From Filobasidium wieringae (lineage: Eukaryota; Basidiomycota; Tremellomycetes; Filobasidiales; Filobasidiaceae): a stretch of 64,000 nt of DNA. The position numbers and the translations under genes were made by a program. The stretch is from the NCBI GenBank assembly GCA_001600055.1, contig BCIV01000011.1, positions 124,001 through 188,000 on the forward strand, in the 5' to 3' direction. The notes under the pieces are model-generated. The model ran no database searches. It saw nothing but the letters and a program-made list of their open reading frames with translations, and was not told the DNA's origin. Shown here piece by piece: positions 11,015-55,900 of the stretch (its first letter is position 1; the number at the start of each line of letters is the position of its first letter).

Positions 11015-12358
11015 TTAGGTTCGGAACTTACTTCGGACGGACCAGGTAACACCAACCCTGTAAAAATCTCAACACGGGATAAAATTCTAGGTCAGGTTCT
11101 TGCTCGAGCACGTATGGAACTTCCGCTCACGAGAGGAATTGATATAACGGCCAGTACAACAACCATTGCCTAACATTGCCTGTGTAGTCCAGTGAGAACG
11201 TCAAGCCAAATCTCATCCCTTTGTACAATCTTCGCTCACCTTCCGTATAAGGATCCCCTGGAACCCGCTTCGCGTCGTTCGCAGCAGTAAGCACTCCCCT
11301 CAACGTAGCCTGGAGAGGTAAGACCGATGTCAAGAACTCCGACAGATAGGGAACTAAAGCCAGAGGTCCGTAGGCGAACAGGAGAGTGTAACAGGTTATA
11401 AACCCGATTACTAGGATAAGGACGCCGGAGCCGGTTTCTGCCCCCATCTGGGACATCATTTCTCCCAGAAACCCGTAGTTATTACGAATCTGGAGCGTTA
11501 TTGGGTAAGTGATAGGAATTGATCTAGGAAGCAACCTGTTCTAACCCCTTCGATGTACCGTAGATTCCTCAGAATTCTCATGTCCTCCTTCTCTTCTTGC
11601 TGCAGACACGTTATTCAGCGTTAATCTCATTGCCTCCCTATCAACCTACCTCAGTGATAGGCATTCCTCTCCATCTGGCCTGAGCTTGAGCCCGCATACT
11701 GTCGAGTATATCCCAAGGAGCGACTGGATTCCTCGAGATATCTGTCGATTTCAAGCCTCTTTCTCTGAATGGCTTTTGTGCAGGTTTGACGAATGGCGAA
11801 ACGACTATTGAACCGTCCGGACGGATACGGACGAGACGCCACTTCCACCCATGAGTGGAACGACGAAGACGGAGGTCGGCGAAATCATGGTTCCAGCTAA
11901 GGAATGTAGGTCTTAGCTAAAACATGTCGAGAAGGCAATGTTAATGGAGGTCCAACAGACCGAAAGTCGAGCGTTTCTGCCCATCGGTCATAAAATTCTC
12001 GGTCTTGAGCATCTTTTGGTAAACCCTGAATGGGTATGTCCAGATCGAATTTCTTTTCTGCGGCTTTGTAATTTAGCTCGGCATCCTCAGGAAACACCCC
12101 TATCCTAGCTCGATACACTTCCTCGACCGGAGGTCGGTTGTTCCGCTTGAACCATCCGGTGATCTCGTCAAATACCGGTAACTTCGCATCTCCTAATGCT
12201 AGATACTTCGTGCTAGGTCTCCCTTCCCCTTTGAACAAATCATCTTCCCCCGGAAGTCTGAGCCATTTGTCTATTCCTACTTCCGTTTGTCGGTCATGTA
12301 GCTCTTCTAGGTCTAGCAACGAAGACGAATCGGAATCAAAGCCTCCGTCGTGGTCCAT
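11015..12358 (-). CDS. Unrecognised protein with C-terminal membrane segments
   Basis: The start at 12358 gives MDHDGGFDSDSSSLLDLEE. The N-terminal half is soluble and well ordered in composition (KLPVFDEITGWFKRNNRPP, AELNYKAAEKKFDLDIPIQG). A splice with donor GTCTGT is inferred to join AETLDF to RWNHDFADLRLRRS. Next comes an arginine/tryptophan-rich block and NPVAPWDILDSMRAQAQARW. After two more introns comes one long hydrophobic region (GVLILVIGFITCYTLLFAYG, then LALVPYLSEF), one or two membrane helices. The end is either at 11127 (YQFLS) or, using a GTGAGC donor and a CTGAC branch, at 11015 in a final exon. I do not recognise the family. The gene is head to head with the AROM fusion. Confidence 0.7.
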
Positions 12359-12804
12359 CTTGATGATTGATACAATCTTCCAGGTTGTAGATCCGGGTGA
12401 ATAGGCTATAATTTGATTGCCATCTTTGCAACTGCCAATTCAAACCAAGGTCAGTTGCTCTCCTTTGCCTCGCCAGGAACGTTTCAGGCAAGCTGAAACG
12501 CGAGCTGGAATCGGGCAAAAAAGATGTCAGGCTCCCATTTTCACCGCCCGAAAGTAAAGTACTCATAATGGTCATTCAATGACTCAACAGCCAGTTCACC
12601 GAACCTCGACTCTACTCTTCCATACCAAACAAAAACGCTAGCAAGCACCTGAATAATAGTTGCAAGTGCAACTGATCGATCTCGAAGATCGGACTGGCTA
12701 CTGCAGTCAAAACCAAAACGAAGTAGCTCACCTGTTGAGCGATCGGCAAGCCAATACGAGTAGAACAAATCGATCGACGACGAGGCAAGAACGACCTCCC
12801 CATC
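12359..12804. promoter_or_regulatory. Divergent promoter region of the 12358 gene and the AROM fusion
   Basis: A 446-bp gap separates two divergent starts. The minus strand is open for 92 codons here (12541-12819), but the frame has no family signal and overlaps the first codons of the AROM gene. I treat it as chance. No TATA box is obvious. Confidence 0.45.
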
Positions 12805-15800
12805 ATGTCTGAGACTCACAACCCCCGCAGACCTGATCTGCTGAAGGTCTCTATTCTCGGATCGGAATCAATTCATGTTGGATGTAAGCCGATCTGTAGT
12901 GGTTGAGCCTACATACAGCTTCTAAGTAGCTGCTTCATGTTTGCTCTATAGTCCACCTGATACCCTACTGGATCGATACTATCCTCAATACCCTGAATTC
13001 CTCCACCTATGTCATCGTAACTGACACCTCTATTGGCCAACTCTACCTTCCCGACATCGTCCGAGAATTCACCAAGCAAATCGCAGAAGTTCAAGCAAGA
13101 GATCCTGCAACTGCCGCAAAAGTCGCCCGAGGAGAACCTGCCGGACCTCGATTACTCTACTATGAGGTTGCTCCAGGTGAAGGAGCCAAGAGCAGGAAGC
13201 AGAAGGAGTTGATTGAGGACTGGATGTTAGAGAACCATTGTCTCAGAGATACAGTGCTTATTGCGCTTGGTGGAGGTGTTGTGGGCGATCTTACTGGTTA
13301 TGTCGCTGCTACCTAGTAAGTAGATCACCAAAATCATCGGATTCAACCGTCATTAACTCTCATTATAGCATGCGAGGTATCAAATTTGTGCAGGTGCCTA
13401 CTACGCTATTGGCCATGGTCGATTCATCTGTCGGAGGCAAGACCGCAGTGGACACCCCTCACGGGAAAAACTTTATCGGTGCTTTCTGGCAACCCACCTA
13501 CATCTTCGTCGACCTTGCCTTCCTTGAGACCCTGGGGTCAAGAGAATTCGCTAACGGAATGGCGGAAGTAGTGAAGACTGCAGCTATCTGGAAAGATGAC
13601 GATTTCGCCTTGTTGGAATCGAGATCGAATGAGATTATCTCGGCTGTCGAGTCGGGAAGTACGGCAGCGAACCATTTGGGTCGATTCGCTGATGCTCGTT
13701 CGGAAGCCCAGGCCTTGTTGATGACCGTTGTCACCGGATCCATCTATGTCAAGTCGCATATCGTTACTATCGATGAACGAGAAACCGGGCTCCGAAACTT
13801 GGTCAACTTTGGTCACACTATCGGACACGCCATCGAGGCTGTATTGACTCCTAGGATGCTGCACGGAGAGTGTGTAGCTGTAGGGATGATCCTCGAAGCA
13901 GAGGTCGCAAGGCAGAAAGGTGTTTTCTCTCAAGTCGGAGTAGGACGATTGACCCGAGCTCTAAAGGCTTATGGGCTACCTGTCTCCTTGCACGATCCAA
14001 GAATCACCAGTCTTCCCCTTAGCAAAAATCTGAGCGTTTCCACCTTGATGAACCTCATGAAGGTAGACAAGAAGAACTCGGGAGCATTCATCAAGGTCGT
14101 CTTGCTCAGCAGGATCGGAAAGACTTACGAAGAGCGGGCTAGTTCTGTGGAAAACCCTGTTATCGAGAAGGTTTTGTGCGAGGCTGTTAAAGTCAAAGCA
14201 GGAATTCCTCGATCGATGACTGGCGACAAGGAGGGGATCGTTATGAGCACTCCTGGAAGCAAGAGTATCAGTAACAGGGCTTTGGTACTGGCCGCGTTGG
14301 GATCTGGTACCTGTCGAATGCGTAACTTGCTACACTCTGACGATACTGCCGTAATGATGGCTGCTCTATCTGATCTCAAAGGAGCTGTGTTCTCTTGGGA
14401 AGATGGTGGCGAGACTTTGGTCGTTCAGGGTGGAGGCGGACGTATGCACCCTCCCGCAAGTGGCAAGCAAGTCTACCTCGGTAACGCCGGAACCGCTGCG
14501 CGATTCTTGACTGCTGTTTGTACATTGGTACAACCCGAGGGAGAGCGAACTTCTACCGTTGTTACCGGTAACGCTCGAATGAAGCAGCGTCCCATCGGAC
14601 CTTTGGTTGACGCCTTGAGGGAGAACGGATCCGATATTGAATACCTTGAAGGTTCTGGGTGCCTTCCTCTCAACATTGCCAGCAAGGGTCTTAACGGAGG
14701 ACATATCAAGCTCGCTGCCAGTGTCTCCAGTCAATACGTTTCAGCCGTTTTGCTATGTGCACCTTATGCTCGGGAACCCGTCACTCTGGAATTGACCGGA
14801 GGTCAGGTCATCTCTCAGTTATACATTGATATGACTATCGCTATGATGAGGGAATTCGGCGTTGAGGTTGTTAGGGAGAAGGATGCTAGCACTGGAGCAT
14901 TGTTGGATATCTACAACATTTCTAACGGCTCTTACGTGAACCCTGCTATTTACAACGTCGAGTCTGATGCTTCAAGCGCGACTTACCCTCTGGCTATCGC
15001 TGCCATTACCGGAACGACTTGTACCTTGACCAACATCGGTTCCTCATCCTTGCAAGGAGATGCGCGATTCGCTAAAGAGGTTCTCGAACCTATGGGATGT
15101 AAAGTCGTGCAGACCGCTACGCAAACGACTGTCACTGGACCACCTATCGGGACGCTGCGAGCATTGAACAGCGTCGACATGGAACCTATGACCGATGCCT
15201 TCTTGACTGCCAGTGTTTTGGCTGCCGTTGCGGTGCAAGAACCGTTTGAGGGTCGACGGGAACAAGGCCTAGAACCAAATGTTACGCGTATCTACGGAAT
15301 TGCAAACCAGCGAGTTAAGGAGTGCAACCGTATCCAGGCGATGCGAGATCAATTGCGTGAGTGAATGAGATCTGAAGGAGAGTTCGATAGTAGGACTAAG
15401 TTCTTTCTGGCTCGTAGGCAAATTCGGTGTGCAGACAGACGAGTTCGATGACGGAATTATCATCTTTGGTTCGCCTCTCAACACCCTCAAACAGGGCGCC
15501 AGCATTCACTGTTACGACGATCATCGAGTCGCGATGGCTTTCAGTGTCTTGGCGACTGTGGTCGATGAGACCATCATCACCGAAAAGCGATGTGTAGAGA
15601 AGACTTGGCCCAACTGGTGGGACGATCTGAGCCGAATCGTGAGTACCGACACTACATCAGAGATTTTTGCGGTATAAGCTGACATATCTTGCTGTGCTAC
15701 AGATCGGAATCGACTTTGAGGGGGTTGACCTCGCGGATCAAGGGCAGACTTCTGCTTCTGGAGCTTACACGAGCCATCTGGCTGGATCGCTGCGCGAAAA

Positions 15801-18800
15801 TGCAACCATTTTCATCACTGGTATGCGAGGAGCGGGTAAAACGTACCTGAGTACCTTGGCCGGAGGACTGTTGAACCGTCCGGTTGTCGATGCAGACGAC
15901 TTCTTCACTGAAGAGATCGGAGAGCCTATCTCCGATTACGTCGCTAAACACGGCTGGCCTGCGTTCCGAGAAATCGAACGGGAGCATCTCGCTTACTTCA
16001 TCAAAAAGAGATCCGAGGGTTGGATCATCAGTCTTGGAGGAGGGGTCGTCGAAACACCTGCTTGTAGAGAGCTGTTGAAGGCGTACCTTGCCGATCGAGG
16101 TGTCGTTGTTCATGTTTTCCGAGAAATCGACGAGATCAGGAGCTACTTGAGTTCTACTGGTGACACTGCTTTACGTCCCTCTTATGGCGAATCGCCGATG
16201 GATGTCTACCAGAGGCGAAGACCCTGGTATTACGAATGTTCAAGTCATGACTACCTCAACTACAAAGGAACCATGGTTGGGAACGCTGGGGCCGGACCAA
16301 GCGAGAACTCCAAGAACGAGGCTTCTAGGTTCTTCAGTCTGCTCGCTGGTCTTAACACGAATAGACCAGAACTTGGAGTTAATCACCGCACCTCGTTCTT
16401 GGCTTTAACCTTGCCAGACTTGTCGCCAGCATTGAACCTCCTCGAGCAGATCACTGTCGGTGTTGATGCCGTGGAACTACGAGTAGATCTGTTGTCCCAG
16501 ACTGGAGAAGCACCTCTTCATGCGACGGTACCCAACATCGATTTCGTAGCTCTACAACTCGCTGCACTTCGGCATCACATCACCCTGCCTGTCATCTTCT
16601 CTGTAAGAACCGAAAGTCAGGGTGGTTTCTTCCCTGATAACGCGATCGACGAATACTTCGACTTCATCCGTCTCGCCATTCGAGCCGGCTGTGAGTACAT
16701 CGATATCGAGATCGACCGACCCAAGGAGCGCGTCCTCGAGGTAATCGACCACAAGGGCGCTTCCCAAATCATCGCCTCATGGCATGATTGGAGCGGCGCT
16801 GCCAAGTGGAGCGACTCTACTGTCGCTCAGAAATATCAGCAGTGCTGTACTATCGGTGACATTGCCAAGCTTGTTGGGACCGCGACTGAGCCAGAGGACA
16901 ACACCGCGTTGGCTGTGTTTGTTGCTCAGACTCGCAAGACTTCCGAGAAGCCCATCCTTGCTATCAATATGGGCAAACAGGGTCAAATGTCCAGGATCAT
17001 GAACCCCATCCTGACTCCCGTGACGCATCCTGCTCTTCCCACTCCTTCTGCTCCAGGGCAGATGAGTTTCGCGCAGATTCAGCAAGCTCTGCACTTGTTG
17101 GGCCATTTGCCCTCCAGGAAGTACTACCTGTTCGGTACTCCCATCCAGGCTTCCTTGTCTCCCGTCATCCACAACTCCGGATTCGAAGCTCTTGGTTTGC
17201 CACACCAGTACTCCTTGCACGAGACGCCAGAGTTGGACCTTAGTATCTCCAGGATTCTTTCGGATCCAGAATTTGGCGGTGCTTCCGTTACTATTCCTCA
17301 CAAGTTGGCGATCATGCCCCACTTGACATCGATATCTGATGACGCTCGAGCGATCGGTGCCGTTAACACTATCACAGTCAAGTACAACGATCAGGGTACA
17401 CGGGTTCTCTTCGGCGATAACTCTGATTGGAAGGCCATCCGATCTTTGTCATTCCGAAGGATGCCTCCCACTGTCAGAATTACCGATAGGACCACTGGAT
17501 TGGTCATTGGAGCCGGAGGAACCTGCCGAGCTGCTGTTTATGCCATCCACAAGCTCGGAATCAAGACCATTTACCTCTTCAACCGAACCAAGGAGAACGC
17601 GCAGAAGGTGGCCGACTTCTTCCCCAAGAAGTTCAACATCATCTGCGTCACTAGTCTTGACAACTTGCCTGCTGCCAAGCCTACAGTAATCGCTTCCACT
17701 GTTCCTGGAGGAAGCACCACCTTGGACGAGAGCGCTCCTGGTCTTTTGTTGAAGCCTAGCCTTCTTTCTGAGGCCGGTGGAGTTGCCATCGAGATGGCGT
17801 ACCGACCCAAGGAGACCGCCCTTACAGAATTGACCAAGCACAACAAGCTTTGGCAGCACGTTTTCGGTGTCGAGATCCTTTTGGAGCAGGCCTTTGTACA
17901 GTTCGAGGGATGGACCGGACGTCGTGCGCCTCGATTCGTTCAAATTGCCGCTGTTCAAGCTAGGGAGAGAGAGCGAGAGGAAGCCGAGGCGGCCAAGAAG
18001 ATGGTGAACGGGAACGAAAACGGAAACGTGATTTCTGACAAGAACCTGCTCAAACAAGGTGAAATGATGGGTAGTTTCCCTCCTGCAGCTCAGATCGAGT
18101 ACTCTTCGTCCGCTCCTATGCCCACTCAGAGCGCTACTCACACTGTCAACGGAAACGATCCTGAAGTACCTACTCACTTGTACTCGCGTTTGCCCGCGCA
18201 CATGTTGCTTCCCGGAGTCAACGGGCAGGACCCTACTCCTGATTACATGCGAATGATCCTGCTTTGTGAGTGCGCTGTGTCACACTCGCTTCGACACCTG
18301 ACTAAACTGTTTTCTACTTTTCACCAAATCAGCCAAGGTCTACAGTGCCCCTTTGAACCTGCAAGAGACTCCCTTGACTCTGGCTGTAAACCTTTCGGCC
18401 AAGTTGGGTAACGAGATCTGGTTGAAGCGGGAAGACATGCAACCCGTCTTCTCCTTCAAGGTTCGAGGAGCTTACAACCTTATGGCTCATCTGACTGAAG
18501 AGGAGCGATGGAAGGGTGTGATCACATGCAGTGCGGGGAACCATGCTCAAGGTGTCGCTCTGGCCGGTTACAGTCTGAAGATCCCCTGTACCATCGTCAT
18601 GCCCCTCGCCACTCCCTCGATCAAGTGGAGGAACGTCGAACGATTGGGTGCAAAGGTCGTCCTTCACGGTCAAGACTTTGACGAAGCCAAGGTGGAATGT
18701 GCTCGTCTAGCCAAAGCGCACGGTCTGAACTTTATCCCACCCTACGATGATCCTCTCATCATTGCCGGTCAGGGAACCGTCGCTGTGGAACTCGCTCGTC

Positions 18801-20212
18801 AGATGAAGGACTTTGAGAAGCTCGACGGAGTGTTCACTAGCATCGGAGGAGGAGGATTGACTTCTGGAATGTCGGCATACATCAAACGGATCGCTCCCGA
18901 GAGTGTCAAGTGTATCGGAGTGGAGACTGTCGATGGGGACGCGATGAAGCGAAGTATCGCCGCGGGCAAGAGGGTCATGTTGAGTGAAGTCGGACCGTTT
19001 AGCGACGGAACGGCGGTGAGGATCGTAGGAGAGGAATGTTTCAGGATCTGTAAGGATACTTTGGACGATATCACTCTTGTCAACAATGATGAGATCTGTG
19101 CGGCCGTCAAGGACGTTTTCGAAGGTAAGCCGATCTCATCACACTCGACGCTTTCCCTTTTCTGACCTTCCCTCCTCTCCCCTTCTTCGTCTGATCTCTG
19201 TAGAGACCCGATCCGTACCGGAACCCGCGGGTGCTCTGGCTCTAGCAGGTCTCAAAGCGCATATCGTGCGAAACGACCTGATCGGAGCTCGGAAAAAGTT
19301 TGTAGCGGTCATCTCGGGCGCCAACATGAACTTCGGTCGATTGAGGTTCGTCGCGGAGAGAGCCGAGTTGGGGGAGAGGAGGGAGGTCTTGATGAGCGTC
19401 AAGATTCCTGAACAACCGGGATCGTGAGTGCTCGTTTCTGTGCCCTTTTGTGGGGTTTGGGAGGAGGAGAGATGGAGGGCTGATTTGGGTTTTGTTTGCT
19501 CTTGCGTGAATAGGTTCATCAAGCTTCACTCGATCATCCACCCAAGAGCGACGACGGAATTCTCATACCGTTACTCCTCGCCCACCGAGGCCCACGTGAT
19601 CACCTCTTTCCTCCTAAACTCATCCCCCAGTAGCGCTTCCATCAGTCCCGACGCGCGAGCGAAGGAGGTCAAGGATATCTTTACGGCCTTGAAGAAGGAA
19701 GGGCTGGGGCCTGTTGATCTGAGCGATGATGAGTTTGCCAAGAGTCATGTGAGACATATGGTCGGGGGGAGACAGTTTGTTCCTCATGAGAGGATCTTTA
19801 GGTTCGGTAAGTATCCCAGTCAGGTTTTCAAATCAGTTTTTGTGGGAGATGAAGCTCATATGTTTCTGCTCCCGCTTACTTTTGACGTGTAGAATTCCCT
19901 GAAAGACCTAACGCACTGAGGAAATTCTTACTGGGTATGGCGTCCAAGGATAAAAACTGGAGCATCACCATGTTCCACTACCGAAACCACGGGTCGGACG
20001 TCGCTCGTGTTCTCGTCGGTGTGAGCGTCCCTCCCGCGGCGGTAGGGGACTGGACGGAATTCGTTGGACAGTTGGGATACCCGTTCGTAGAGGAGAGCAA
20101 CAACGTGTGAGTCTCGAGGGTTCTGGATGCGGCGTAAGGGATGGGGAGCTGATTGTAGAAATGGGTTGCGTTTTTTTCTTATAGTGCTTATGCGCAGTTC
20201 TTGAAAGCTTGA
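12805..20212 (+). CDS. ARO1-ILV1: Six-activity fusion: pentafunctional AROM joined to threonine deaminase
   Basis: Ten exons (12805-12883, 12952-13315, 13369-15356, 15418-15638, 15703-18265, 18333-19124, 19204-19423, 19514-19806, 19893-20106, 20185-20212) sum to 6,762 nt, exactly 2,253 codons plus stop. Domains in order are as follows. 3-Dehydroquinate synthase, about 1-390, has [12 protein letters not shown] and the metal-ligand motifs [14 protein letters not shown] and [13 protein letters not shown] synthase, about 405-895, has [10 protein letters not shown] and [11 protein letters not shown]. Shikimate kinase, about 915-1095, has GMRGAGKT. Type I dehydroquinase, about 1110-1330, has His1245 in SWHD and the Schiff-base Lys1273 in GDIAKLVG. 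Shikimate dehydrogenase, about 1355-1630, has [12 protein letters not shown] and [11 protein letters not shown] roughly 95-residue Ser/Asn/Gln-rich linker follows. Threonine deaminase, about 1725-2253, has [10 protein letters not shown], the PLP Lys1781 in [20 protein letters not shown] and GGGGLTSG, plus two C-terminal ACT-like regulatory domains. No stop or polyadenylation-like break lies between the AROM and ILV1 parts. The N-terminus does not look mitochondrial. Confidence 0.93.
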
Positions 20213-20731
20213 ATGAGGCGAGGAATACCGGATTGGATTTGATTGAGCATATTGGTTTGGACTTGGGTAATATCATAGCTAGCCCAGTGGAACTAGTGGT
20301 ACCACGATTTCTTGTTTATTGCATTTTTATACGTATGATCGAGTTGCTGTTCGGCCTGCGAGGTCCGGTTATTTGGTTGATTCTGATAAGCCGGAAGTAA
20401 ATTCGATGTACGGGGCTCCGGATTCTGATGAATTGATTGTGGTTCGATCAGGAATCAAGGGGAAACGAGAATCGATTAGGTCAGCTCAGTCGTCGATTTG
20501 TAGAGATCACAGATAGGGGTAATCGTTAGGCTCCAGGTGATATACAGCATACAGCCACTGGCGAGCGATTCCATAACGTTCAGCGACGATCACAAGGCTG
20601 TGTTCCTACTCGCCTCGACTTGAAACGAAATCAACAGTTACATCCTACGGTAGCTTTACCATGCCCCGATTCTGCTAGTCACAACACCGCACAATCATTT
20701 CAACCTAGATCGTACCTCAATCAAGGTCAAG
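20213..20731. other. Intergenic, no gene seen
   Basis: This is the 3' flank of the AROM-ILV1 gene followed by the promoter of the lipase gene. Short open frames occur on the plus strand but have no Met-led exon structure or domain. No RNA gene or repeat was seen. Confidence 0.4.
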
Positions 20732-23700
20732 ATGATCGACCATATCCTAGGAAAACCATCCCCCACCTTCCGCCGTGTCCAAGTATTCCTCGTCATCTTT
20801 TTCTGGTCATGGCGTTTATACGTCGGCGATCTTCGTCGACGAAGCAAGAGGAAACTCAGGGTTTTAGGGGAGAGGAAAGTATGGGGTTTGATCGCGGGGA
20901 GAGAAGGGGGAGGGTTTTTGGGGATCATGGGGTTGATCAATAGGAAATTGAGTGAGTTTTGCGAGGTTCATTTTGTTGCGCTCGGGGATGGATGGGAAGA
21001 GTTTTGCGGGAGCTTGGGTGGGTAGGAAGGGCGATACTGATTACGGACTTTTGATAGAGCAATTCTCCCCTTATCAATTAGTAGTTGGAACCTTGACTCT
21101 CATGTACGCCCTCCGGAATCTCGACGTTATCGTCGGCCTAGGATGTACGTCTCGTCTCCCCCTTTTTCCCTGTCGATCAACCTAATCCTCTTATCTCCTA
21201 CTAATCAGCCCCAGAACCATTAGCCCGAATGGTCCGTCCTCCCTCCTCCCTCTTCTGATCCTTAACAACTAACACCCTGTCTTAAACAGTACTCGAGAGC
21301 ATACTACCGAGCGACGTATATATCCACCTCACTCGATGCAGGGTTCGCCACGGCCGCTTCTATTCGTCCGAAATGGGTGAGAGATTTGGCTAGTGTGGTT
21401 TTGGGGGGGTGGTACCTCGTCTGGGTACGGGAGGGGGATGAGAAGGTACGTCTCAAGTCCAACACGGGAAGAGAGAGAGAGGGAGAGAGAGAATGACGGC
21501 TGATCGTTTTTTTTTGCTGGTGGTGGTATAGTTGAGAAGGTTCAGGAGCGTCTGTACTGTTGAGATGTTGAGGGTCACTTGGGAGAAGACTAGTAATCCT
21601 TACGTAAGTGTTCTGCTCTTCTAGCTCTCATCATTTCTGCAGTAACATCCATCCATTGACCGCATCTACCAACCACAGCTCCGCCTTTTAACCTACTTCG
21701 ACCGTCCTTCCCTTCCTCTAGTCAAGAAACTCCTCCTCCCCCGCCCGAAATCCTCTAAACACACAAAACCGATCTCCTGTCAACTCTTCTCCCCCCTTCC
21801 TCTCGAAGAGCTTAAAGCGTGTACGGAGATCATATTGGATTTCCCTGGGGGCGGGTTCGTCGCGATGGGGCCGGAACATCATGAGGAACGATTGAGACGG
21901 TGGGCGAAGAGGACGGGGAAACCGGTACTGGCTGTCGATTATGGGAAAGCTCCCGAGTGTGAGTTCATATGCCCGGGTTGCGTTTCTATATCAGGTTGAG
22001 GTATTGATGAGGTCGTTTGGAAATGCCAGATCCGTATCCTTGGGCTATCGAGGAGGGGTTCGATGTTTATCAAACTCTGGTACAGACTAAAGGATCTGTT
22101 ATTGGGATCAACAGTGGACAGTTGGATATCATCATGAGTGGGGATTCGGCGTGAGTCTAGATTATGGAATGACAGCGAGCACGGACGTGTCACTCATCTT
22201 GGGATCATGGTTGAAACCATTCGATTAGCGGAGGCAATATCGTCACGACCATCATGCTCAATATCCTAGAATCCTCGGAAAAGATCAAACATCCTCTCGC
22301 CCTGGTGCTCGCCTACCCCGCCATCGATTTCAATTACAACAGTTGGATGACACCTCAAGACCTCCAAGTCCTGAGGGTAGAACAATCTTCCGGAAACCTC
22401 GCGGGGATCATGGAGGGGAAAGACCATATGCGCCATAAGAGTCCGCTGAGCGTGGTTAGTGATACTCAGAAGAAGAAATCGGTAGCAGATATCAAGGGCG
22501 ATTTGTCCAGGAAATCCAGCTGGCAACGATCTCTTAGTGGGAGGTTGAGACAGTTTTCGGGGGAACGTGCTGGATCTCGCTCGACTAATCCATTCAACCT
22601 CGATGGTCGAAGGGAAGAGGAAAAGAGTTTGAGAGAAAGGGTGAAGACGCCTGCAGAGGAGGTCTCGATGGAGGCTTTACAACGGGAATTGAGAGCTGCC
22701 GCAGCAGAGGCGCAGGAGGAGGAAGAGAATAATAGGCTACCTATCGGGACCAGGTTGACGATGACTTCTCGTACAGGGTATTTCCAGGACCGTATCATAA
22801 GCCCAACAATGGTGAGCAGCCCCTGTTGAGTGTAATCCATTTTGGCAGATACTGACTCGCTTATCATGACAGATGCGCGCCATGGCGATCCTCTACATCG
22901 GTCCCAGACACAACCCCGATTTCGCCACTGATTATTATATCAGTCCGATCTTGACTCCCGAGAAATTGCTCGCACAATTCCCCCGGACCTACCTGATTTG
23001 CGGCGAGAAGGATCCTTTCGTCGACGATACTGTCATTCTTGCCGGTCGACTGCGACAGGCCAAACGTAACAGGAGAGAAGAAGCTAGACGCGAAAAGGCC
23101 AAACGTCTAGCTCAAGCTAGAGCTGGACTAAGGATGAGCAGAGCCGACTCGAATACTCCAGACGACAAGATCATCGACGAAGAAGAAGACGATTGGCTGA
23201 GCATGCGAATCATCGAAGGATGGGGACATGGTTTCGTGAGTCGGCAGTTCGCGTCGAGGTGTTTCACTCAGAAGTTGACGTCTAATTACCATCAGATGCA
23301 AATGCTATCCGTAATGAAGCATGATGTCGAACCTGTGCTGCTGGATATAGCGGATTGGATTGACGAGACATTCGCGCAGGCTGCCGTGGAACGCGAAGTC
23401 AAACAGCATCGCCGGTCTCAAAGCACGCCTTTACCTAGGAGTTTCAGTCTAGTAAAAGCAGCTAAATACAAAGAGACGGAGCCTGAGAAACCACTTGGCT
23501 CTGCAGATCTTGGAGGGCCACTAGCGCTGGACTCGGAGACTGAAGGGGAAGATGATGACGAGACGGACGATGTTTTGTCATTCTCGACGAAGAAGACCAG
23601 GATGAGTTTTTCTCAGAGCATGCCGAACGGCATTTCGTCCGATCGCAGCCCTAGTGTGCCCAACTTTTCTTTCTCAGGGGAAAGCTCGAACGAACCTCTC

Positions 23701-38356: not shown

Positions 38357-41300
38357 CTATTTTCTTCCTCCTCGTCTTTTGTCTCTCGCCTTCTCTCTGT
38401 AACGTGAAGCAATCAGATCAGCATGTTTTTCCCCAACATCTTTTTCTTATTTGTGGACTGACCTCTCTGCAGCCTTTTCCTCGGCTCGTTCCGTGGTCGC
38501 AATGGAACCCACAACACTTCGCATCCTCTTCTCGTAGCCTTCGTCCTTCTCCTTCCTCTCCTTTGCCTTCTCCACGGCCAAAAACTTGGCATCCTTCCGG
38601 AGTTCCCGGATAGCTCCTTTCCTCTCCTTCTTGTACATCGATTTGAGCTTGGCCGCTTCGTTTCGCTCCGCGTCCGGGTCCACTCGTTTTCCTCGAGAAT
38701 ACTCGACATCGAATTTCGGCGCGTATTGAGGGATAGGAATGGCTTTGTGGGTTTGCATTTCGAGAGGTCTTCGGTGCTTTCCTGCAACGCTTAGCATCTT
38801 TCCTAGTTTACCAGTCTCCTCCTCGCACAAAGCCTAATCAGACGGAAAATCAAACATCGGTCATCTGGGTTGTTTTACTGGTATCAAACCCATCAGAGAA
38901 CTCACCTTGACGCCAGCCGGTACCTTACTTCCCGAAAGCGCAAAGACGATCTCAAAGAAGGGTTCATAAACTTCCCCAAATGCGTCAGTCCCCTCGTGCA
39001 TCTCCGCAAACTTCCCAACCAGCTTCAAAGCGAGTCCTATCAGATCCACCTTAGCTTGTTCCAGCTCAATCCCCTCTAGCTCATCCGCGTTCAATAAAGA
39101 AGGAAGATCCGCCGTACGGGGCGCAAGACCGGTGGCTTGTTTTCGTTGGATCTGAATGAGGTTGTTATTCTTGATTCCTTTTAGTTGAACCAGAGGGAAA
39201 CTTCCCGGTACAGGATCTAGAATGAGGGAAGAGGGTGCCAGAGCGAGGATGCTGAATGCTACGAAGTTCAGGGCTTCAGGTACGATCTTCTTGGAGTAAG
39301 CTTCGTACTATTCGTTTCAGGAAACGAAATCAGCAGACCGATCCAACTTCGTCTAAGCAGAACCACTCTCACCTGAAGGAAAATGGCAGCCATGAACAAT
39401 CCAGCAGCGATATCTCCCAACCCCCTTACACGACCCTGACTCAGATTTTGTCCCATATATAGCGCTGCAGGGACGGAAACCGGATGAGAGAAATCGCTGG
39501 TTGACCAAAGGGTCCCTATCATCCTCAAAACCGCCAGTTCTCCCAAATCCGGGAAAGTCGATTCGGTGGATTTGGAATTGGCTAATTCTTCCATCAAGAT
39601 CTCGTGCATTTCTGCCAACATCGATTTGAAATGTTCTGCAGCGGTGAGCGGGTTGAGGGCGACGAGAGCGTTGATATGCGGCGCGAGGAGGGTAACCAAA
39701 TTCATACTCTCTTGAACGGGAATAGCCTGAACTACGTGTTCAAGCAATATTCCGAGCAGACCTTGTAATCTCTCCTTGTTACCTTCTCCTAGACTGGGAT
39801 GGTAGAGCGTCCGGATTCGCTTGACTACCGTCTCGACGTCTTCATCGTCCAGGCCTTCGACGATTTCCAGGAAATCCTCGTATGATTCGGGACACTTGAA
39901 GGTAAATGGAATCTCCTTCTTTACGGCCTTGCCCTTGCCTTTGACCTTGAGGGTAGACTTCTTGGTCAGGCGAGATGAAGCGGCTTCGAGGTCCTCTTCG
40001 CTTGCAACATCCTCTTCATTCATCTCAGATGCGAGATCGTCGAGATCGTCTGCCTCTTCCTCCAAATCATCGTCTTCGTCTTCGTCCTCGTCCTCTCCAT
40101 CCTCTTCGTCCTCCTCTTCATCTTCAACTTCCGATCCGTCCTCTTCCAAAACAGCCTGCCTTGCTCCCAGACCATCTCCTAACCCGAATTCCTTTGCATC
40201 CCCGTCCTCCGACCCATCCATATAATCATCATCCAGATCATCCGCCTCCGGTTTCCTACTCTTCTCCCCAGTATTCCTTCTCCTTCTCCTGCCCCCGGCT
40301 TCTTCCTCATCTTCATCCTCATCCACCTCCCCTCGCATACGTTTTAGTCGAGCAGCTTCAGCTTCTTGAAGCTTCTCAGCTTCTTCCTTGACCGTCTCTT
40401 CCTCCGTCTTTGTTCGGTCTTTAGGCTTCGCTCGTCGATCGAAAGCAAGCGACCGAACGTATTGATCGTAATCAATTTTCTCTTGCTCGCTCTTCTTGTC
40501 ATCCGCAGACTTTTCTTGTTCGGCCACAGGAGCTTTATAGAAATCCAAGTTCGACTTCATCTTGCCTTTTGGTGCGGATTCTGCTAGTAATTCTCGCAAA
40601 TCATCCAGACCTTCATCTAGTTCCATACGCATATCCTCGTCTAGTTCTTTCTGTTGTTGTCGCTCAAGCTAAAAGACACGAAACCAGAATCCTCAGACGG
40701 GGATCCTTGAGAGGTTTTGAAGAGCTGGACTAACCTTGTAGCTTTTGCTTTTGGCGATGACTTCTTGCATAATCTCGTTTTTGCTCCTCTTTCTATCAGG
40801 CTATCAGACACCGTGATTGATATCAGTATCCCACCGAGATACGATCGAGCTTTAACAACTTACATCATCATTTGGCTCATCTCCAAATCCTCCAAAGTTA
40901 TTCCGTCTAGTCAAATCCCGTTCCACAGCTCCCTCCTCCCCTTCAACCTCTCTGTTGATTCCAAAATCGTCTTCAAGTTCGTCTTCGTCCCCTAGACCTT
41001 GAGTCATGAAGTCGTCCCCCTTCAGATCATCCACCGCTCTTCCACCATGAGTAAGAGTGAACCCGGCATTGGAAGCTCCCAAATGCAGATCTCCATCATC
41101 AGCTCCGAATCCAAGTCCACTAGAATCTTCGTCGTTCAGGTTGAATATTCCCTTTCGACCTGCTCGACCTCGCTCGGCATCTCGAGTTCGGGTGAAACGC
41201 TCAAGAGCACGTTCTTCAGGAGTGATATTAGGGTTTGATTCTCCGAAACGTCTGTCTACGAAGGTACCAGTATGACCTGATCTTCGGAGTTGTAGTTCTG

Positions 41301-42312: not shown

Positions 42313-44861
42313 CTACATATTGACGAAACTGGTATCTAGACCATATCCAAAGTCCCAAATAATAATACTCTGTCCACCAAATGAGCAAAGATTTAGTGTT
42401 GCAATTGACGCGAAGCGTTGTTTTCGCTCTCACCTGATCAATCCCGGTGCTGACGATCTTTGTACGATCTCCGATTACACTGAAGATCCGAGAGGTGTGT
42501 AGTCCAGGTAGATCGGCAAGGAACACCCGACCTTTTCTATCCCAAAGCTATAAATCAATCATGTCAGATGGATAAGATAGATCACAGCTGACTCCATTGT
42601 GACTCACCTTGATGGTCATATCGTAACTCCCGCTACAAACTATGTCTCCTCCTAACCACAAAGACCTGACCAGCCCCTTGTGCGATCGGTTATAGCATAC
42701 CATGCACCTGAGCGCGACCTGTCCCCCTTCGCCAGCCTGAGCCGCGTCTGTGTGCAAATCGTGCATAGGCATGTGTGACCGGTTGGATTCGTTTGAACGG
42801 CAATACCTGCACGCGAAGAATTCTTGCCCGCTCGGATGAGGAATCTGAGGCATTCCAGTTCCAGGAGTAGGATGTATTTGACATCCCGCGGAAGGTTTCG
42901 TAAAGTCGAAACCCCATTCGGAGAGTTGATAGATTCTGACCCCTGTATCTGAACTACCAGTGACTATCGTTCCTGTCGATTCGTCCACGTCCAAACTGGC
43001 GATCCCCCCGGTGTGAGCGTTTATTCGGGTCAACTCTTTGCCTGTGTTGGCACACCAAATCCTCAGTGTCCGGTCGCCTGAGGCGGAAATTCTAGAAGAC
43101 CAGCACACAATCGATCAGCCTTTCTCTTTATCGCTTTCCTAATGCGATGCGGCGTAACCACGTACATCAGGTCTTTTACAAGTGCGACAGCGTTTACAGC
43201 AGCAAGATGCCCTTCGAGTTCATTCGGATGAGGTATATCCGCTTGTAAGAGATGGTTTTCTGCTTGGACGCCGACATTTGGTGATGGTCCGCCGATGATC
43301 AAGAGCGGTTCTAGAGTCTTCGCATCCCATGTTCGAATTGATCGATCTGTCAAATCCGTAGTGTCATGAGTGAGCGCTCCTTGTATTTGCGAAGAAAGCG
43401 TTTGACGAATCCTCACCTTTGGAACAACACACGATCCGCTTATCATCAAACCTCACGCAGAGCACGCTCTCCAGCCTTTCATGAGCCTGAATCTGCCCTT
43501 CAATCGCACCAGTAGCGACATCCCAGATGACCAATTTCCCATCTGATCCTCCGGAGATCAATCTCATTCCTTTCCCCGCACCCTGAGCTCTCACGTGAAG
43601 CGTGAGGACGGACCCTCCATGCCCGCCCTGATCTGGAGATGCTTGGTAGACCTTGACGACTCGGGAAGATTGAAGATCCCATAATCTTATGGTCCGGTCT
43701 CTTGAGCCGGAGAACAACCAGTTTCGACCTTCAATCGAAGTGATCGCGCTCGCTCCATCTATTGACCCTGAGCGACGGGGACTGCTCATTGATTTGGAAG
43801 TCGGCTCGATAGGTATGACTAGCTCTTGATTGATTATCTGCAAACAATATATACCCTCCCTATGGCCATCTAGGCCTCCATTTAGGACGCTTGCTGCAGC
43901 GTCTAACACAGTAGGCCTTTGTTTTCCTTTCATGAATCTTGCCTTGAGGATTTTGTGGACCAGGTAGAGATGCTTGTAATTGCATTGAGGGCGAGGAAAT
44001 GGGGCGGGTAAATGGGACAGAACGGGGAAGTTGGTAGTGGGACGTTGTGGTGCAGGATGGCTTCCCGAAGAACTGGAACCAGTGGGTAAAAGAAAGATGG
44101 GTAGTCCACTATGTTGTCTCCCAGATCGAAACGAAGGTCTTCTCCTGCTGGACGGGTCGACCGAAGGTAGGGAGAAATCGGCTCTCTCGATCACATCCCT
44201 TCTTATCCCTGAGAAGATGGCATCTGGAATCTGATCGTCTAGATCGCTGGTCTCATCCCATGAATCCTCTTGCTCCTTAGAATTAGTCTTGCGTTCTGCA
44301 TCTTCCTTTTCAATGCGGATGACCTTTTCTCGTTCGGCAAATATATCTCGCCAGGAAGTCAAGGGGTTTGAGGATATCGAATCGTTCTCGCACAGTCTGT
44401 GCCATAAAACTGTTATAAAGCCAATTGACATTAATATCGATCGATCACAGCAGAAGACAAAGGCCTAACCTTGATCGTTTGCTAGAGCTTGCCAAGTCTT
44501 GTTCACCAAACTGGCTTGCAATAACGAAGGGATATCTAGGTAGCTGAAGATGTATAGAGCTAGCTCTCGAGGAAGACACTGCCTCGAGGAAAGTTAGGAG
44601 ACATCGGTATGAGCAACGCCGATCGCGACCAAAGGAAGTTCCGCTCTCACCCCTATGACATCCCTTCTCAATCTCTCCGTGAGTACCGCATGTATATCAC
44701 ATAGATGATTCCTATGGAGACCTTTAAGGAGATCCAAGACGAGTTCTGAGGCACAGAGACAATACTTTCAGTCTTTCGTTTCGAGTGTGCAGCTTACGTG
44801 CAAGTTTACCTTTTCGATCTAGCTCTTCCATGTTTTCATGCTGCATCTCATTCTGTGCCAT
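42313..44861 (-). CDS. F-box/WD40 protein, SCF substrate receptor
   Basis: The start at 44861 gives MAQNEMQHENMEELDRKG. After two short exons comes a clear F-box (CLPRELALYIFSYLDIPSLL, then ASLVNKTWQALANDQ), which binds Skp1. A linker of about 130 residues leads to seven or so WD repeats: LFSGSRDRTIRLWDL, LISGGSDGKLVIWDV, RSIRTWDAKTLEPL, ISASGDRTLRIWCA, TIVTGSSDTGVRIYQL, IVCSGSYDMTIKLWD and SIIIWDF. This is the layout of Cdc4/Met30/Fbw-type ubiquitin ligase receptors. Inserted before the sixth repeat is a Cys/His cluster (FFACRYCRSNESNRSH, then RCMVCYNR) that could bind zinc. The last exon ends DTSFVNM at 42313. The target protein is unknown. Its SCF partner Rbx1 is also encoded in this window (61122-61829). 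Confidence 0.88.
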
Positions 44862-49004: not shown

Positions 49005-51425
49005 ATGGCACTCTCCACTCATCTAGTCCAAGCATTCGAGCACCAACAACTTTCACACAAACACGCTCAACTACACCCTTCCAACCCTACTCGACAACCG
49101 TTCACTCCTCAATACATAATACAAACGCCTACCAAACCTGCACCTACCTTCAATCCGATTCCTTCTCCATTATTTAGCGTCTCTCACGGTCAGCCCGTCA
49201 GAGGAAAGAACGGCTCAAGACATACGATCCCGACAGTCGATTCGGAAATGGAACAAAAACCTCCTATAACCCAGAACCTATCGACCCCTCAATCCCACGC
49301 CCCACCTCATGCGTTCACTTATCAGTCGAACAACCCGACTCAACTTACTGCGTGGGATGCTGGAGGTTCTCTCCCCCCACCTCATCCGTCACACCACCCA
49401 TTCACACAATCAAGTCAAGCACCGGCTACAATGTCTCTATCGGAATATACCGCAGGGCAGATAGCTACGCTTCAAAGTAGGCTGGCAAAGAAGTTGGGAC
49501 CGGAGTATATCACACAGAGACCTGGAGGCGGGGGAGCTAAATTGAGGTAAGCAATGTGAGCTTGGATTGGCAGGCAGAGCGAGGGGCTGATTTGGTAGTG
49601 GGTTGAACGGGAGGTAGTTATATCGAGGGATGGAAAGGTCGGTCTATTATTCATCATTACACAGCCGTTCGAGTGCTTGGTGAAGATCCTGATACATTTT
49701 CCTTATTGTTCCATCGATAGCGGTCAATTTGGCGAACGAAGTGTTCGGGTTTAACGGCTGGTCCTCGCAAATAATCTCTTTGACGACCGATTTCGTACGT
49801 CCTTTTCTCCCCTTCCTTGTGCTCCATGCTCAATTTTTTTCCCTCCTCTTGCCTTGTCGCGTTTGTTTAGTGCGACGAGCTTTCCCCCGGTCGTTATACC
49901 GTAGGGATCACTGCTATCGTCCGAATCACCTTGAGGGACGGGACGTTCCATGAAGATACTGGATACGGGCATGGGGAAAATCAGAAAGGCAAAGGGGTCG
50001 CTTTAGATAAAGTCAGTATCGCCGATCTCTTTTGATCTTTTACAGAATGAATGAGATGGGTGGTCTAACGTTCGATCATTATGTGCGGTAGGCGAAGAAG
50101 GAAGCGGTGACGGACGGAGTGAAAAGGGCTTTGAAAGGGTTTGGGAATGTCTTGGGAAATTGTCTATATGATCGAGAGTTCTTGAAAGACATTCAGAAGG
50201 TTAAACTTGGGCCTGTGAGTGTAGGTTTTCTACCGTATCTGAAGGAGAATATTGATGAAATGTTGTTGCAGAAAAAACCTCTGGTACCGGAAGATCTGTG
50301 GAGACGACCGGAACATGATGAACTATTCCAATCTTCTGCTCAAGCCGGTCCTTCTCGTCCCCATCCTGCTTTAGATCAAGAGACAAGGAACTACGTCGAT
50401 CCACCCGGCCAGCCGTTGGATAATGGAAAATATTATCGTAGTTCGGAACATATGCCTGCCGACCAGACCATACAGTCTGTAAAGGACGAACAAGGCTTCA
50501 CGAAACCTGCTTTACCCAGCCGATTGGATCCAACAACCGTCTCAACCCCTATCCGAGCACCACCTAGAGATCCCGCCTCCCGTGCAGCCGGAGCTCAAGC
50601 AAGGGCGGAAGCGCTGGCAGCGGGAATGGCAATAACTCGACCGACAACGACGGAAGTGGAAAACTTTTACGCGGATGATGATGAGGCTCTGGCCGGGATT
50701 GATATGTTGGATTACATTGATGATCCAGCTGTTAGACCTACCAGTACGGACTTGGAATTGGATGGGCTTGACGGCCAGGACTTTGGACACGTGGCGGAGG
50801 AGACAAGGGAGGAGGAGGGGATGGGACAGGTCTCGGTTAGGACGGATGGGTTTGGCGCTCCACCTGGTAACACAGAGGAGCACGATAGGCCGGCGGAGAA
50901 AGTTGGAGAAAGACCGGAACCGGTCAGGGTGCGATCGGCTGGTGGCTTTGTATACCCTTCGGCAACGGTAAGCTTCAGCAGTGTGTCATATTATGGGATG
51001 ATGCACTGACATGTGACGGTACAGAACGGAACGACCGAAAACCGATCAGTAAAATCAAATATATACCCAGAAGTACCTACCCTAAACGGTGTGAAGAAAC
51101 CATCCCCGTCCGAAGCAGCCTTGAGACGGGCAAAAGCTATACAAGACGGTATGAATGCTGGCTCTCCTTCCAACTCCCATGGGAGCGATAGCGACGGATT
51201 TACTAGCGCGAGGGGAATGAAGCGGACTAATCCTGGAGATGGTGATGGGTAAGCTAGTCTTTGCTGTCTGTCCCTTACGAGTCTTCGTCACTGATGACCA
51301 AAGGGGCATCTTCCAGATTCGGATTGAAGAACCCGGGCAATAACGGTGGAATGACGACAGCTCGGAAGGTCCTCGGAGAACTGAACGTACATACTTTGCC
51401 AGATCCAAAGCGGATACGATCGTAA
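49005..51425 (+). CDS. RAD52: RAD52, recombination mediator and annealing protein
   Basis: Rad52 anneals single strands and loads Rad51 in homologous recombination. The start at 49005 gives [20 protein letters not shown]. Translation here begins with a long disordered N-terminal extension of about 145 residues rich in Pro/Gln/Ser. The conserved Rad52 core follows: [90 protein letters not shown] and [16 protein letters not shown]. The C-terminal half is disordered, with acidic patches ([19 protein letters not shown]). It ends [15 protein letters not shown]. About seven exons are present and the core is complete. The N-terminal extension before the core is longer than in budding yeast Rad52, where the core starts near residue 40. 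Confidence 0.95.
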
Positions 51426-52940: not shown

Positions 52941-55900
52941 TCATTGATTACGTTCCGTATTTTCTGATTTATTTTCTCCTATCCTCTTCAAAATGTCTAG
53001 AGCACCTTCTCCGACACTGAATCCTCCTCTTCCTCCAGCCGAGGTGGAACCTCTCGAACTAGCCTCTGCACTAGCTCGGAGGCCGGCCACACGAGCGTAC
53101 CGAGCTAAACCACCTAAAATGGGAGAACCGGGACTTCGGGGAGACCTTCCTGTGTCGCTGATACTCGCGGTGTGACTACTACGCCTATCCCTGACTGCCC
53201 CCGGGATCGTTAAACCAGTGGTAGACGGACTTTCCGACAGCTTGACCCTGCCATCCGGATCTATCGCCGTGGAATCGTTCGATGATATAGTCAATGGCGG
53301 TTGTGAAAGGCGGTCAACAAGTCCCTCTCGCGTCACACCCACGACACTACCCGCCTTGCCTGTCCCGCTCATACCAAGCTGAATTCCTCTGCCAAATTTG
53401 CTGGACGAAGCGGAAGACGAAGCGACGCTAGACGGTCGCCTCATCGACTTGACAGAAGCGTGCACTGCATCTCTGAAACTGTGTGGAGCAGGCTGTGATC
53501 CTAAGCGTAAATGGGAGGAGTTTTCCGCAGAATCTCTGCTGCGTTCGAGGATGGGTCTTCCGGCACTATCGAGGAGCGGCGGGAAATATCCTCCCGACGA
53601 TTTCCTTGCTACGGCCGGAGAGGAAAGAGGAGCAGATGGCCGATGATCAACTAGACTCGACATTCTTTGCAGCTTTGAGTTTTCGATCTGACTTCCAGTA
53701 GAGACTGACCGTCGTGGTCTGGCTGGCGTCGGGACGTATACCTCGGCCTCCAATTCGTGATAACGAATCCCTTCCGCTAATCCGTACGGGTTAAACCCCT
53801 TGCCAGCGCTAGGGTTGTGATGATCGACGACGCCTTCTTCTACCGCAGTAATCCTGCCGACGATCCATTCTCGCTCTTGCATCATCTGTTCAATTCCACT
53901 GGTAGGCTTCAAGAAATAATGTGGGCTAGCGATATTGAAAGCCGCCCAGCTTTTCGCGCTAGCATTCCGCGTTGGTAGGAACAGTGCGAGGTCTCCCTTT
54001 GTGAAGCTAGCGAAAGCGATTTGATTCTTGGACCGCTCCCGGTATTGCTTGCAGGACTTTTGCCATTTCTTGACCAGGCTCATAGTCCTAGATACTGCTT
54101 CAGAAAACGCGTTGAGATCATAATTCTTCAGGGTTTGCAGTTCAGCCAACAAGTAATCGGCGCTAGCCATAGAAGACATGGTGGATTCCTTGATAGCTGC
54201 GTTGCTCGCCGATTCCACTGCGCTTTTCCCCGGTAGCGTACCAGAGACGGATCCGGAAATGGTAGCACTCGATTGTATAGCTAGATGCAGTCTTGACACG
54301 CAGTCGTGAAATACGCTTGCGATCTTGATTGCTTCCTTGCTGAATTCCTCCTGTCTCTCCTTCTCGACCTTCGCAACGCCTGCTCTATCTTGTTCTTGTA
54401 TCACCACGTCGTTCGATTGGGATACCTTCCGCTGCGCTTCTCTTAACTCGGCCTTGATCATTCCCATTTCAGCTTTCAGGCCGTTCATTTCTCGCGTATG
54501 TCGCGCTTCAGCAGCATGCAAGTCTGCCGACGCCTTGGTCTTTGCCCCTTCCACCTCTTTAGCCAACTCGATCGTCTGGTTCTCCAAGACGGCCCTATCC
54601 CCGTGCGCCTCGGCCAGTCTATCTCTCAGCACTTTCTCGGCAGAAATCGCCTGAGCCTCTAATGCGGTATCTCGTTGCGCCTTTACTTCCTCGACGGAAT
54701 GCAAAGCGGCCTCCAGTTCAGTTTGCAATTGCAAGACCTTTCTCGCGAGCGCTTCCTCGTCTTTACGCGCGTCGGAAAGCCCTTGCAAGATCTGGGATCG
54801 ATCCGCTTCGAGGTTCTGCAGTTGTGACTTGTGAGCCAGTCTCTCTTCCTCCAGGTCTTTCACAGCCGAACGTAGTCGTTCTTGCACGATTTCCTTCTCA
54901 TGGTCGAGTTGTGCGATCTTACCGTTCAGTCGTGCAATATCAGAAGACTGAACGTCTTGATCGGACGTCTGCGATTGTCTTCTCGATCGTTGGCGGAGTT
55001 CTTGATTCTCTGTTCTTAGCTTTTCGATCTGTTCGAGGAGGGAAGCGACGACAGGTGCTACTCGATCGTTATGCCCGTCCAGCCTACTTTCATGGCGCAA
55101 AGCATCCCCAAGAGCGCTGATACTTCGTTGAGGTACGTTACTTGGCGATATCGCTTGCGCCTTCTCGTCTTCAAGGAGAAGGATGGAATCAGCCCTCCGT
55201 TCCGATATACCGTCCCCTTGCGACCTACTCTCTTGAATCCAAAGGATTCGCAGCTGTTCCAATTCCGTCGACATCGTTCCCATCTGACTCTTCATTGTCG
55301 ATAACGTGACGTCGATCGGGTTCGTGTCGTCCCGTATGAAATCCGCCAAAACCGGATCACTTTTCAGCCTTTCAAAGCTCCCAAGTAGTTCTACAAGTAC
55401 GCAAGGCTTGTTAGCGACATATCAGTAGCTTAGCAATTCGACTGACCAGGCAACGTCGTTCTGGAGATATCACACTCCTCCAGATCGATATCCCCCGAGA
55501 CGACCGATAAATCGACACTCGGTCCCAACTCCCCATCCTCCGTCTTCTCGCTCAACCCCTCGATCTCGTAGGGTAACAACCCCAGGACGTCGTTCCTAAA
55601 CCCCTTCCTCCTCTCCCTCTCCCTTTCCAAATGCGTTCCGAGGGAATCGACCAACCTCCCCGCTCCCTCATGTAACAAGTCCCCCAGTCCTTTCCTCCAG
55701 GCCACCTCCACGCATGCGAGGCCGTAGGCACCTAACATGCCTCGTAGGCGGTGCAGATGCGGGAACCCGGTTTTAGCGAGGGTCCGGGTGGACAAGAGGG
55801 ATTCCTCGAGAGAGTTCATCCGAGGTGTTAATTCCGCTATCGCGCTTTGTTGAGCAGAGATCCCGTGTAGATGAATATGGAGGGTGAGCGTGAACAAGTT

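Follow-up and report, generated by a model that had tools for sequence, protein, structure and literature searches.

A predicted six-activity protein joining AROM to threonine deaminase in Filobasidium wieringae

Gene structure and domain content of the locus

AROM, the textbook five-enzyme protein of fungi for making aromatic amino acids, and threonine deaminase (TD; ILV1), which catalyzes the first step toward isoleucine, are considered here at a locus of the yeast-like basidiomycete Filobasidium wieringae where one reading frame encodes both. The DNA analyzed, called the window below, is the 64,000 nucleotides from 124,001 to 188,000 of the forward strand of contig BCIV01000011.1 (assembly GCA_001600055.1), and coordinates are window positions unless another contig is named. 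An earlier note, made from the letters of this DNA, had described a single ten-exon frame of 2,253 codons at 12805–20212 (+), and splicing of the region confirms it: removal of nine introns, all bounded by GT..AG and 53–90 nt long (646 nt in total), leaves 6,762 nt, that is 2,253 codons plus one stop. An in-frame stop lies inside eight of the nine introns, and the ninth (18266–18332, 67 nt) shifts the frame instead. The start codon at 12805 is supported by the lack of any other ATG after the preceding in-frame stop (12736), and the sequence from 12000 to 21000 contains no N. The predicted mass of the 2,253-residue protein is 245.2 kDa.

The ten exons, all on the + strand and all placed by splicing, were assigned to domains by Pfam matches, by genome searches with parts of the protein and by alignment with P0001, the second fused protein described below. 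Exon 1 (12805..12883; P0001 alignment) carries the start codon and the beginning of dehydroquinate (DHQ) synthase, which occupies exon 2 (12952..13315; Pfam, P0001 alignment) and shares exon 3 (13369..15356) with 5-enolpyruvylshikimate 3-phosphate (EPSP) synthase, whose end is in exon 4 (15418..15638); exons 3 and 4 were both assigned by Pfam, P0001 alignment and a genome search with EPSP synthase. Exon 5 (15703..18265; open reading frame list, Pfam, P0001 alignment) encodes shikimate kinase, type I dehydroquinase, shikimate dehydrogenase, a linker and an ILV1 N-terminal tail, and thus contains the join. Exon 6 (18333..19124; Pfam, genome searches with TD and PALP) encodes the catalytic PALP domain of TD, exon 7 (19204..19423; Pfam, TD search) the end of that domain and the beginning of the regulatory part, exon 8 (19514..19806; Pfam, TD search) regulatory ACT-like sequence, and exon 9 (19893..20106; Pfam, genome searches with Thr_dehydrat_C and TD) the second regulatory ACT-like domain. 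Exon 10 (20185..20212) ends with the stop codon, and its final residues align with those of P0001.

The Pfam matches above cut-off in the AROM half are DHQ_synthase, DHQS_C, EPSP_synthase, SKI, DHquinase_I, Shikimate_dh_N and Shikimate_DH, with SDH_C scoring 24.7 against a cut-off of 25.8 (1.1 bits short), and after these come PALP at residues 1749–2041 and two Thr_dehydrat_C stretches. Residues 13–1631 match the solved AROM structure 6hqv, and the TD half matches the solved threonine deaminases 8y1j and 1tdj along nearly its whole length. The claim that five AROM domains and a full Ilv1 stand in one chain is therefore borne out by both Pfam and structure matches. All five AROM domains are present in their usual order in one chain, but that chain does not end after shikimate dehydrogenase, at about 1,600 amino acids; it continues for some 600 residues, so that the protein is an AROM plus a sixth module, and this module has the PALP and ACT-like (Thr_dehydrat_C) order of the ILV1/IlvA family. 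We consider it likely, as far as sequence can tell, that the locus encodes one polypeptide that would carry out the five AROM steps (3-deoxy-D-arabino-heptulosonate 7-phosphate (DAHP) to EPSP) and act as an isoleucine-regulated threonine deaminase (threonine to 2-oxobutyrate).

The join and a second fused protein

The join lies within exon 5, which is free of stops throughout; this, together with the charge test described below, upholds the claim of the earlier note that neither a stop nor a targeting peptide intervenes there. Following the AROM half is a fast-changing linker (residues 1644–1678; 17980..18084, +), near whose end two in-frame ATGs (18064..18069, +; residues 1672 and 1673) stand just ahead of a retained ILV1 N-terminal tail (residues 1679–1738; 18085..18265, +). 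The second of these methionines aligns with a methionine of P0001, and the pair is possibly a remnant of the ILV1 start codon or an alternative start. After the linker comes a block of 20 residues with the same letters in the window fusion and in P0001, and the tail as a whole has the form of a 13-residue stretch followed by VPTHLY and later PDY. Stand-alone TDs of the Naganishia group mostly start with a variable stretch, then (L/I)EYSSSAP and then VPSHLY-like residues (P0123 is without the (L/I)EYSSSAP motif). Since this tail motif is kept inside the fusion, the ILV1 N-terminus was presumably nearly complete at the time of joining, which is what loss of the AROM stop codon would be expected to give. 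The window protein contains no NPGP, and we accordingly rejected 2A-like self-cleavage; the search for repeats at the locus gave one weak 25-nt inverted pair only. An antisense open reading frame of 276 codons (17449–18279, −) spans the join; it has no Pfam match and is probably due to chance.

A search for other fusions was made with residues 1620–2253 as the query against proteins 0.55 to 1.75 times the length of the whole protein, and among 7,983 scored candidates it gave two proteins, P0001 and P0002. Since scoring was confined to the candidates with most words in common, and the database probably does not extend to eukaryote genomes without annotation, the two fused species known here (F. 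wieringae and that of P0001) are a lower bound. In P0002, an annotated protein of Phlebia brevispora, the C-terminal part of TD precedes topoisomerase I, and two gene models have probably been merged there. P0001, which has 2,235 amino acids and comes from a second species, has the same domain order as the window protein and is the kind of AROM with a C-terminal PALP domain for which the earlier note had proposed a search. The two proteins align end to end and colinearly, with six small gaps, none of them at the nine splice sites, and 1830 of 2235 positions (82%) are identical. Identity is 1328/1630 in AROM, 6/33 aligned residues in the linker, 48/60 in the ILV1 tail, 278/303 in PALP and 170/209 in the regulatory part (496/572 for tail plus TD), so the linker is the fastest-changing part between the fusions and PALP the slowest.

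The P0001 frame of 6,708 nt lies on a longest contig of 6,911 nt, and the 203 nt outside the frame are too few for nine introns as long as those of the present gene (646 nt in total); P0001 is therefore probably a spliced transcript (cDNA) that runs through the join. Thus, a single frame across the join is observed, and a single transcript would follow from the size of the P0001 contig. Because P0001 carries the same join followed by the conserved ILV1 tail, the join is, on this comparison, genuine and not a product of chance or of a mis-join. It would be scarcely credible that two neighboring genes have here been misread as one by the assembly or the gene model; merged gene models do occur, apparently P0002 among them, but the locus has no N, the exon is continuous and open across the join, and the P0001 species has the same join. 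We have therefore rejected an artefact, and the assembly error that the earlier note had named as a possible refutation is answered in the same way.

Relatives, descent and constraint

Among the best 120 of 2,156 AROM matches P0001 is the only fused protein, the other 119 being 1,474–1,635 amino acids long. The best 120 of 8,000 TD matches are 515–670 amino acids long, in a search whose length limits left no room for fusions to appear. Among the matches listed, Naganishia onofrii has the nearest stand-alone AROM (P0003, 68%), and P0122–P0125 are the nearest stand-alone TDs. Adjacency of ARO1 and ILV1 is not general, since the locus numbers of the two genes are far apart in the three species for which both were listed: Cutaneotrichosporon sp. 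HIS471 (0205440 and 0403680), Cerrena zonata (007386 and 011496) and Coniferiporia weirii (007969 and 000689).

Trees were built for each half from rows picked by hand, 29 of 122 for TD and 27 of 121 for AROM, the latter by a quick method with support from the Shimodaira–Hasegawa-like approximate likelihood-ratio test (SH-aLRT) only. In the TD tree the window protein and P0001 are paired (100/99), and the pair falls in a seven-row clade (98/96) with Naganishia adeliensis and four further sequences, whose inner order this tree leaves unresolved. In the AROM tree the same two are paired (100), their sister is N. onofrii (90), and a further sequence lies outside, completing a clade of four rows (100). 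Both halves thus look native, with vertical descent near Naganishia, and neither tree gives support to a horizontal origin of either half, which we rejected.

Both halves also keep the near-invariant residues of their families, these being columns with at least 98% one letter among 119 stand-alone AROMs and 116 stand-alone TDs (the latter count omits P0125, P0141, P0159 and P0188, whose ends look cut or odd). Of 491 such AROM columns 480 are conserved in the window protein and 475 in P0001, which also departs at each of the 11 columns where the window protein does; for TD the values are 194 and 195 of 200, respectively.

Copy number in the assembly

We searched the 19.76-Mb assembly (33 contigs) for a second, stand-alone ILV1, whose presence or absence the earlier note had proposed to check, and found the fusion to be the sole ILV1-type gene. 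The single Thr_dehydrat_C match is at the fusion locus, and a TD query gave seven matches, of which five are exons of the fusion gene, one is on contig C4 (27%) and one, a short match, is on C1. EPSP synthase likewise matches at the fusion locus only. PALP gave 15 matches, one at the fusion locus and 14 on six other contigs; those examined resemble tryptophan synthase (C21), cysteine-synthase types (C16, C17 and C20), the SDS type (C4) and, on C1, a serine racemase or dehydratase, names assigned by eye except for C4. As the Thr_dehydrat_C, TD and PALP searches gave no second ILV1, we rejected that candidate for this assembly, the completeness of which is not given.

The C4 gene (G000:C4:301654-302415; L010, L040) encodes a stand-alone 415-residue serine/threonine dehydratase of SDS/CHA1 type, with 4h27 as its best solved match and with neither a regulatory domain nor a presequence-like start. 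Its presence gives some room to the idea that the TD half of the fusion is inactive or dispensable and that 2-oxobutyrate comes from another enzyme such as this one, but PALP is the best-conserved part between the two fusions, the TD half retains nearly all of its near-invariant columns (above), and the C4 protein has no regulatory domain to be seen; we judge the idea highly improbable.

The compartment of threonine deaminase

The earlier note had reasoned that, with AROM in the cytosol and fungal TD in mitochondria, the fusion itself would shift 2-oxobutyrate production to the cytosol or demand a new route of import. TD is indeed mitochondrial in two ascomycete yeasts: Saccharomyces cerevisiae Ilv1 acts in mitochondria according to passages of PMC5829821 and PMC6874960, and Schizosaccharomyces pombe Tda1 is reported in PMC9730122 to have a putative presequence and to give a GFP signal in mitochondria. 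We scored N-termini by a charge test that asks for a net charge of at least +4 and no more than two acidic residues in the first 40 residues. This test is crude (a comparison cysteine-synthase-like protein that is probably mitochondrial scored +3 and would be missed), and it cannot allow for missing upstream exons. The N-terminus of the fusion fails it with a net charge of −1, as do the methionines inside the fusion: four at residues 1651–1690 score −2 to −3, and those at 1718, 1733 and 1735 score −1, +2 and 0. By this crude measure the fusion is without the N-terminal presequence of a mitochondrial ILV1.

The same is true of most separate TDs, which, as far as they are named, we take to be from Agaricomycotina. 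The test is failed by 118 of the best 120 stand-alone TDs, the two that pass (P0188 and P0203) both having unusual starts, and a LEYSSxAP-like motif lies near the start in 115 of the 120 and is missing in five; the nearest separate relatives, P0122–P0125, also fail. That the fusion itself took TD out of mitochondria accords with the mitochondrial enzymes of the two yeasts and with the absence of a presequence-like start at the fusion N-terminus and at the join, but the stand-alone enzymes, including the nearest relatives, already fail the test, and we regard such a relocation as very unlikely; this part of the earlier reasoning was not borne out. Because so many of the nearest stand-alone ILV1 proteins are without a presequence by this test, a change of compartment, if there was any, very likely predates the fusion, and a cytosolic TD probably came first. 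An ILV1 without a presequence before the fusion would remove the obstacle that had been raised, and may have allowed the fusion to happen.

In the genome of the window, ILV5 (C4, +7), ILV2 (C2, +5) and one dihydroxyacid dehydratase (DHAD) gene (C11, +7) pass the charge test from start codons picked by eye, and NCBIfam agrees with their identities (ilvC, acetolactate synthase large subunit and ilvD, respectively, the gene pieces scoring below the whole-protein cut-off except for acetolactate synthase). Compared with the stand-alone TDs, which share an N-terminal motif where a presequence would stand, this suggests that 2-oxobutyrate is made outside mitochondria in Agaricomycotina while ILV2 (acetolactate synthase) and ILV5 (ketol-acid reductoisomerase) of the present genome keep presequence-like starts. 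RidA was tried as a proxy for TD location and proved uninformative, as its copies differ in this respect: one on C21 (G000:C21:281748-282026, L044) has a presequence-like start and an inner methionine, as if dual-targeted, and of the other RidA-family matches (C1, C9 and C19) one copy seems to be without such a start.

Origin and possible function of the fusion

Taken together, these observations lead us to favor, with good confidence, a six-activity fusion of single origin, formed from tandem genes by loss of a stop codon. The fusion would have arisen once, in an ancestor common to F. wieringae and the P0001 species, once the Naganishia lineage had separated. The genes ARO1 and ILV1 would first have come into tandem, ARO1 would then have lost its stop codon, and the intervening sequence would have become the variable linker of about 35 residues, placed ahead of an almost intact ILV1 N-terminus. 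The full-length fusion would be the main product and work in the cytosol, and the 2-oxobutyrate it makes would then enter mitochondria, where the later enzymes would act. Aromatic and isoleucine pathways share no intermediate, so channelling is an unlikely reason for the fusion, which would rather couple the levels of the two enzymes; a 1:1 ratio would require that all ILV1 be made as part of the fusion.

Several points weigh against this origin and function. Of the two halves, AROM alone resolves the order within the Naganishia group (SH-aLRT 90), P0001 stands for a single-member cluster on one contig whose cDNA nature is judged from its length, and the compartment is judged from N-terminal composition by a crude test. 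A second DHAD-like gene (G000:C9:840177-841453, L038) matches ilvD and by eye is without a presequence-like start. Finally, translation of a separate ILV1 could begin at the in-frame ATGs 18064 and 18067.

This last point leads to an alternative with two products, a read-through fusion and an unfused ILV1 made from an internal promoter and ATG 18064/18067, so that much TD would be free. What follows the two ATGs, the second of which has its counterpart in P0001, is a nearly entire ILV1 N-terminus, and a GAGTCA core is present at 18215, although it may be due to chance, as there are four more such cores in the gene (13845, 17012, 18375 and 19742). Because the AROM half lacks a stop codon, however, ribosomes that translate the long transcript produce the fusion; in addition, one contig encodes P0001 across the join, and there are no full TGASTCA sites between 12587 and 34399; two products therefore seem unlikely to us.

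TD is a tetramer and AROM a dimer. It is conceivable, though doubtful, that TD tetramers tie AROM dimers into a larger assembly or filament, a regulated six-activity machine in which isoleucine or valine bound at the ACT-like domains alters aromatic flux; if so, two amino acid pathways would be coupled through one protein. Yeast Aro1 is reported in punctate foci and Ilv1 in mitochondrial rods in a section of PMC6874960. A sixth enzyme from a different pathway has been built into AROM, and no other copy of it was detected in the assembly; this offers a natural test of whether fusing non-consecutive enzymes serves stoichiometry, assembly or shared regulation, or has no use at all.

Surroundings of the gene

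A TGACTCA sequence at 12580..12586 (+), found by motif scan upstream of the start codon, is what we take to be a Gcn4/Cpc1-type site. As a sign of joint control it is weak, since TGASTCA is rarer in the window than expected by chance (7 observed, 12.2 expected), and we did not retain it as such. A search of the window for non-coding RNA families gave no match that reached the gathering threshold. The neighboring exons are ordinary: Nop14 (39271–40668, −), a WD40 protein (43367–44464, −), Rad52 (50092–51006, +), ATG11 (52944–55421, −) and a histone deacetylase (58724–59698, +).

Comparison with known systems

Full-text literature searches found no published description of an AROM–ILV1 fusion among the results listed, and to that extent the statement of the earlier note that it knew of none stands. 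A survey of EPSP-synthase multidomain proteins in 390 fungi counts 22 associated domains, of which 16 occur in fewer than three proteins each, and its main text has no mention of PF00291, PALP or threonine (PMC9394408). The fusion is apparently an undescribed merger of two unrelated pathways.

Like fungal AROM (ARO1), the window protein has the five activities in the usual order and matches 6hqv; unlike it, the frame stays open into a sixth enzyme, a feature that only P0001 shares among the best 120 of 2,156 matches. With ILV1/IlvA it has in common the PALP domain, the two Thr_dehydrat_C stretches and the near full-length match to 8y1j and 1tdj, whereas here these form the C-terminal module of a 245-kDa protein. 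It differs from the mitochondrial TDs of S. cerevisiae and S. pombe in having no presequence-like start. The nearest parallel in kind is the basidiomycete spermidine synthase–saccharopine reductase (SPDS-SR), which the portion of PMC10051792 that we cite describes as an in-frame cross-pathway fusion bridged by a long stop-free exon, so that the fusion of enzymes across pathways has a precedent in basidiomycetes. The two are alike in joining two pathways in frame through such an exon, and they differ in the enzymes joined and in that the present fusion, known here from two species, adds a sixth activity to an enzyme that already had five parts.

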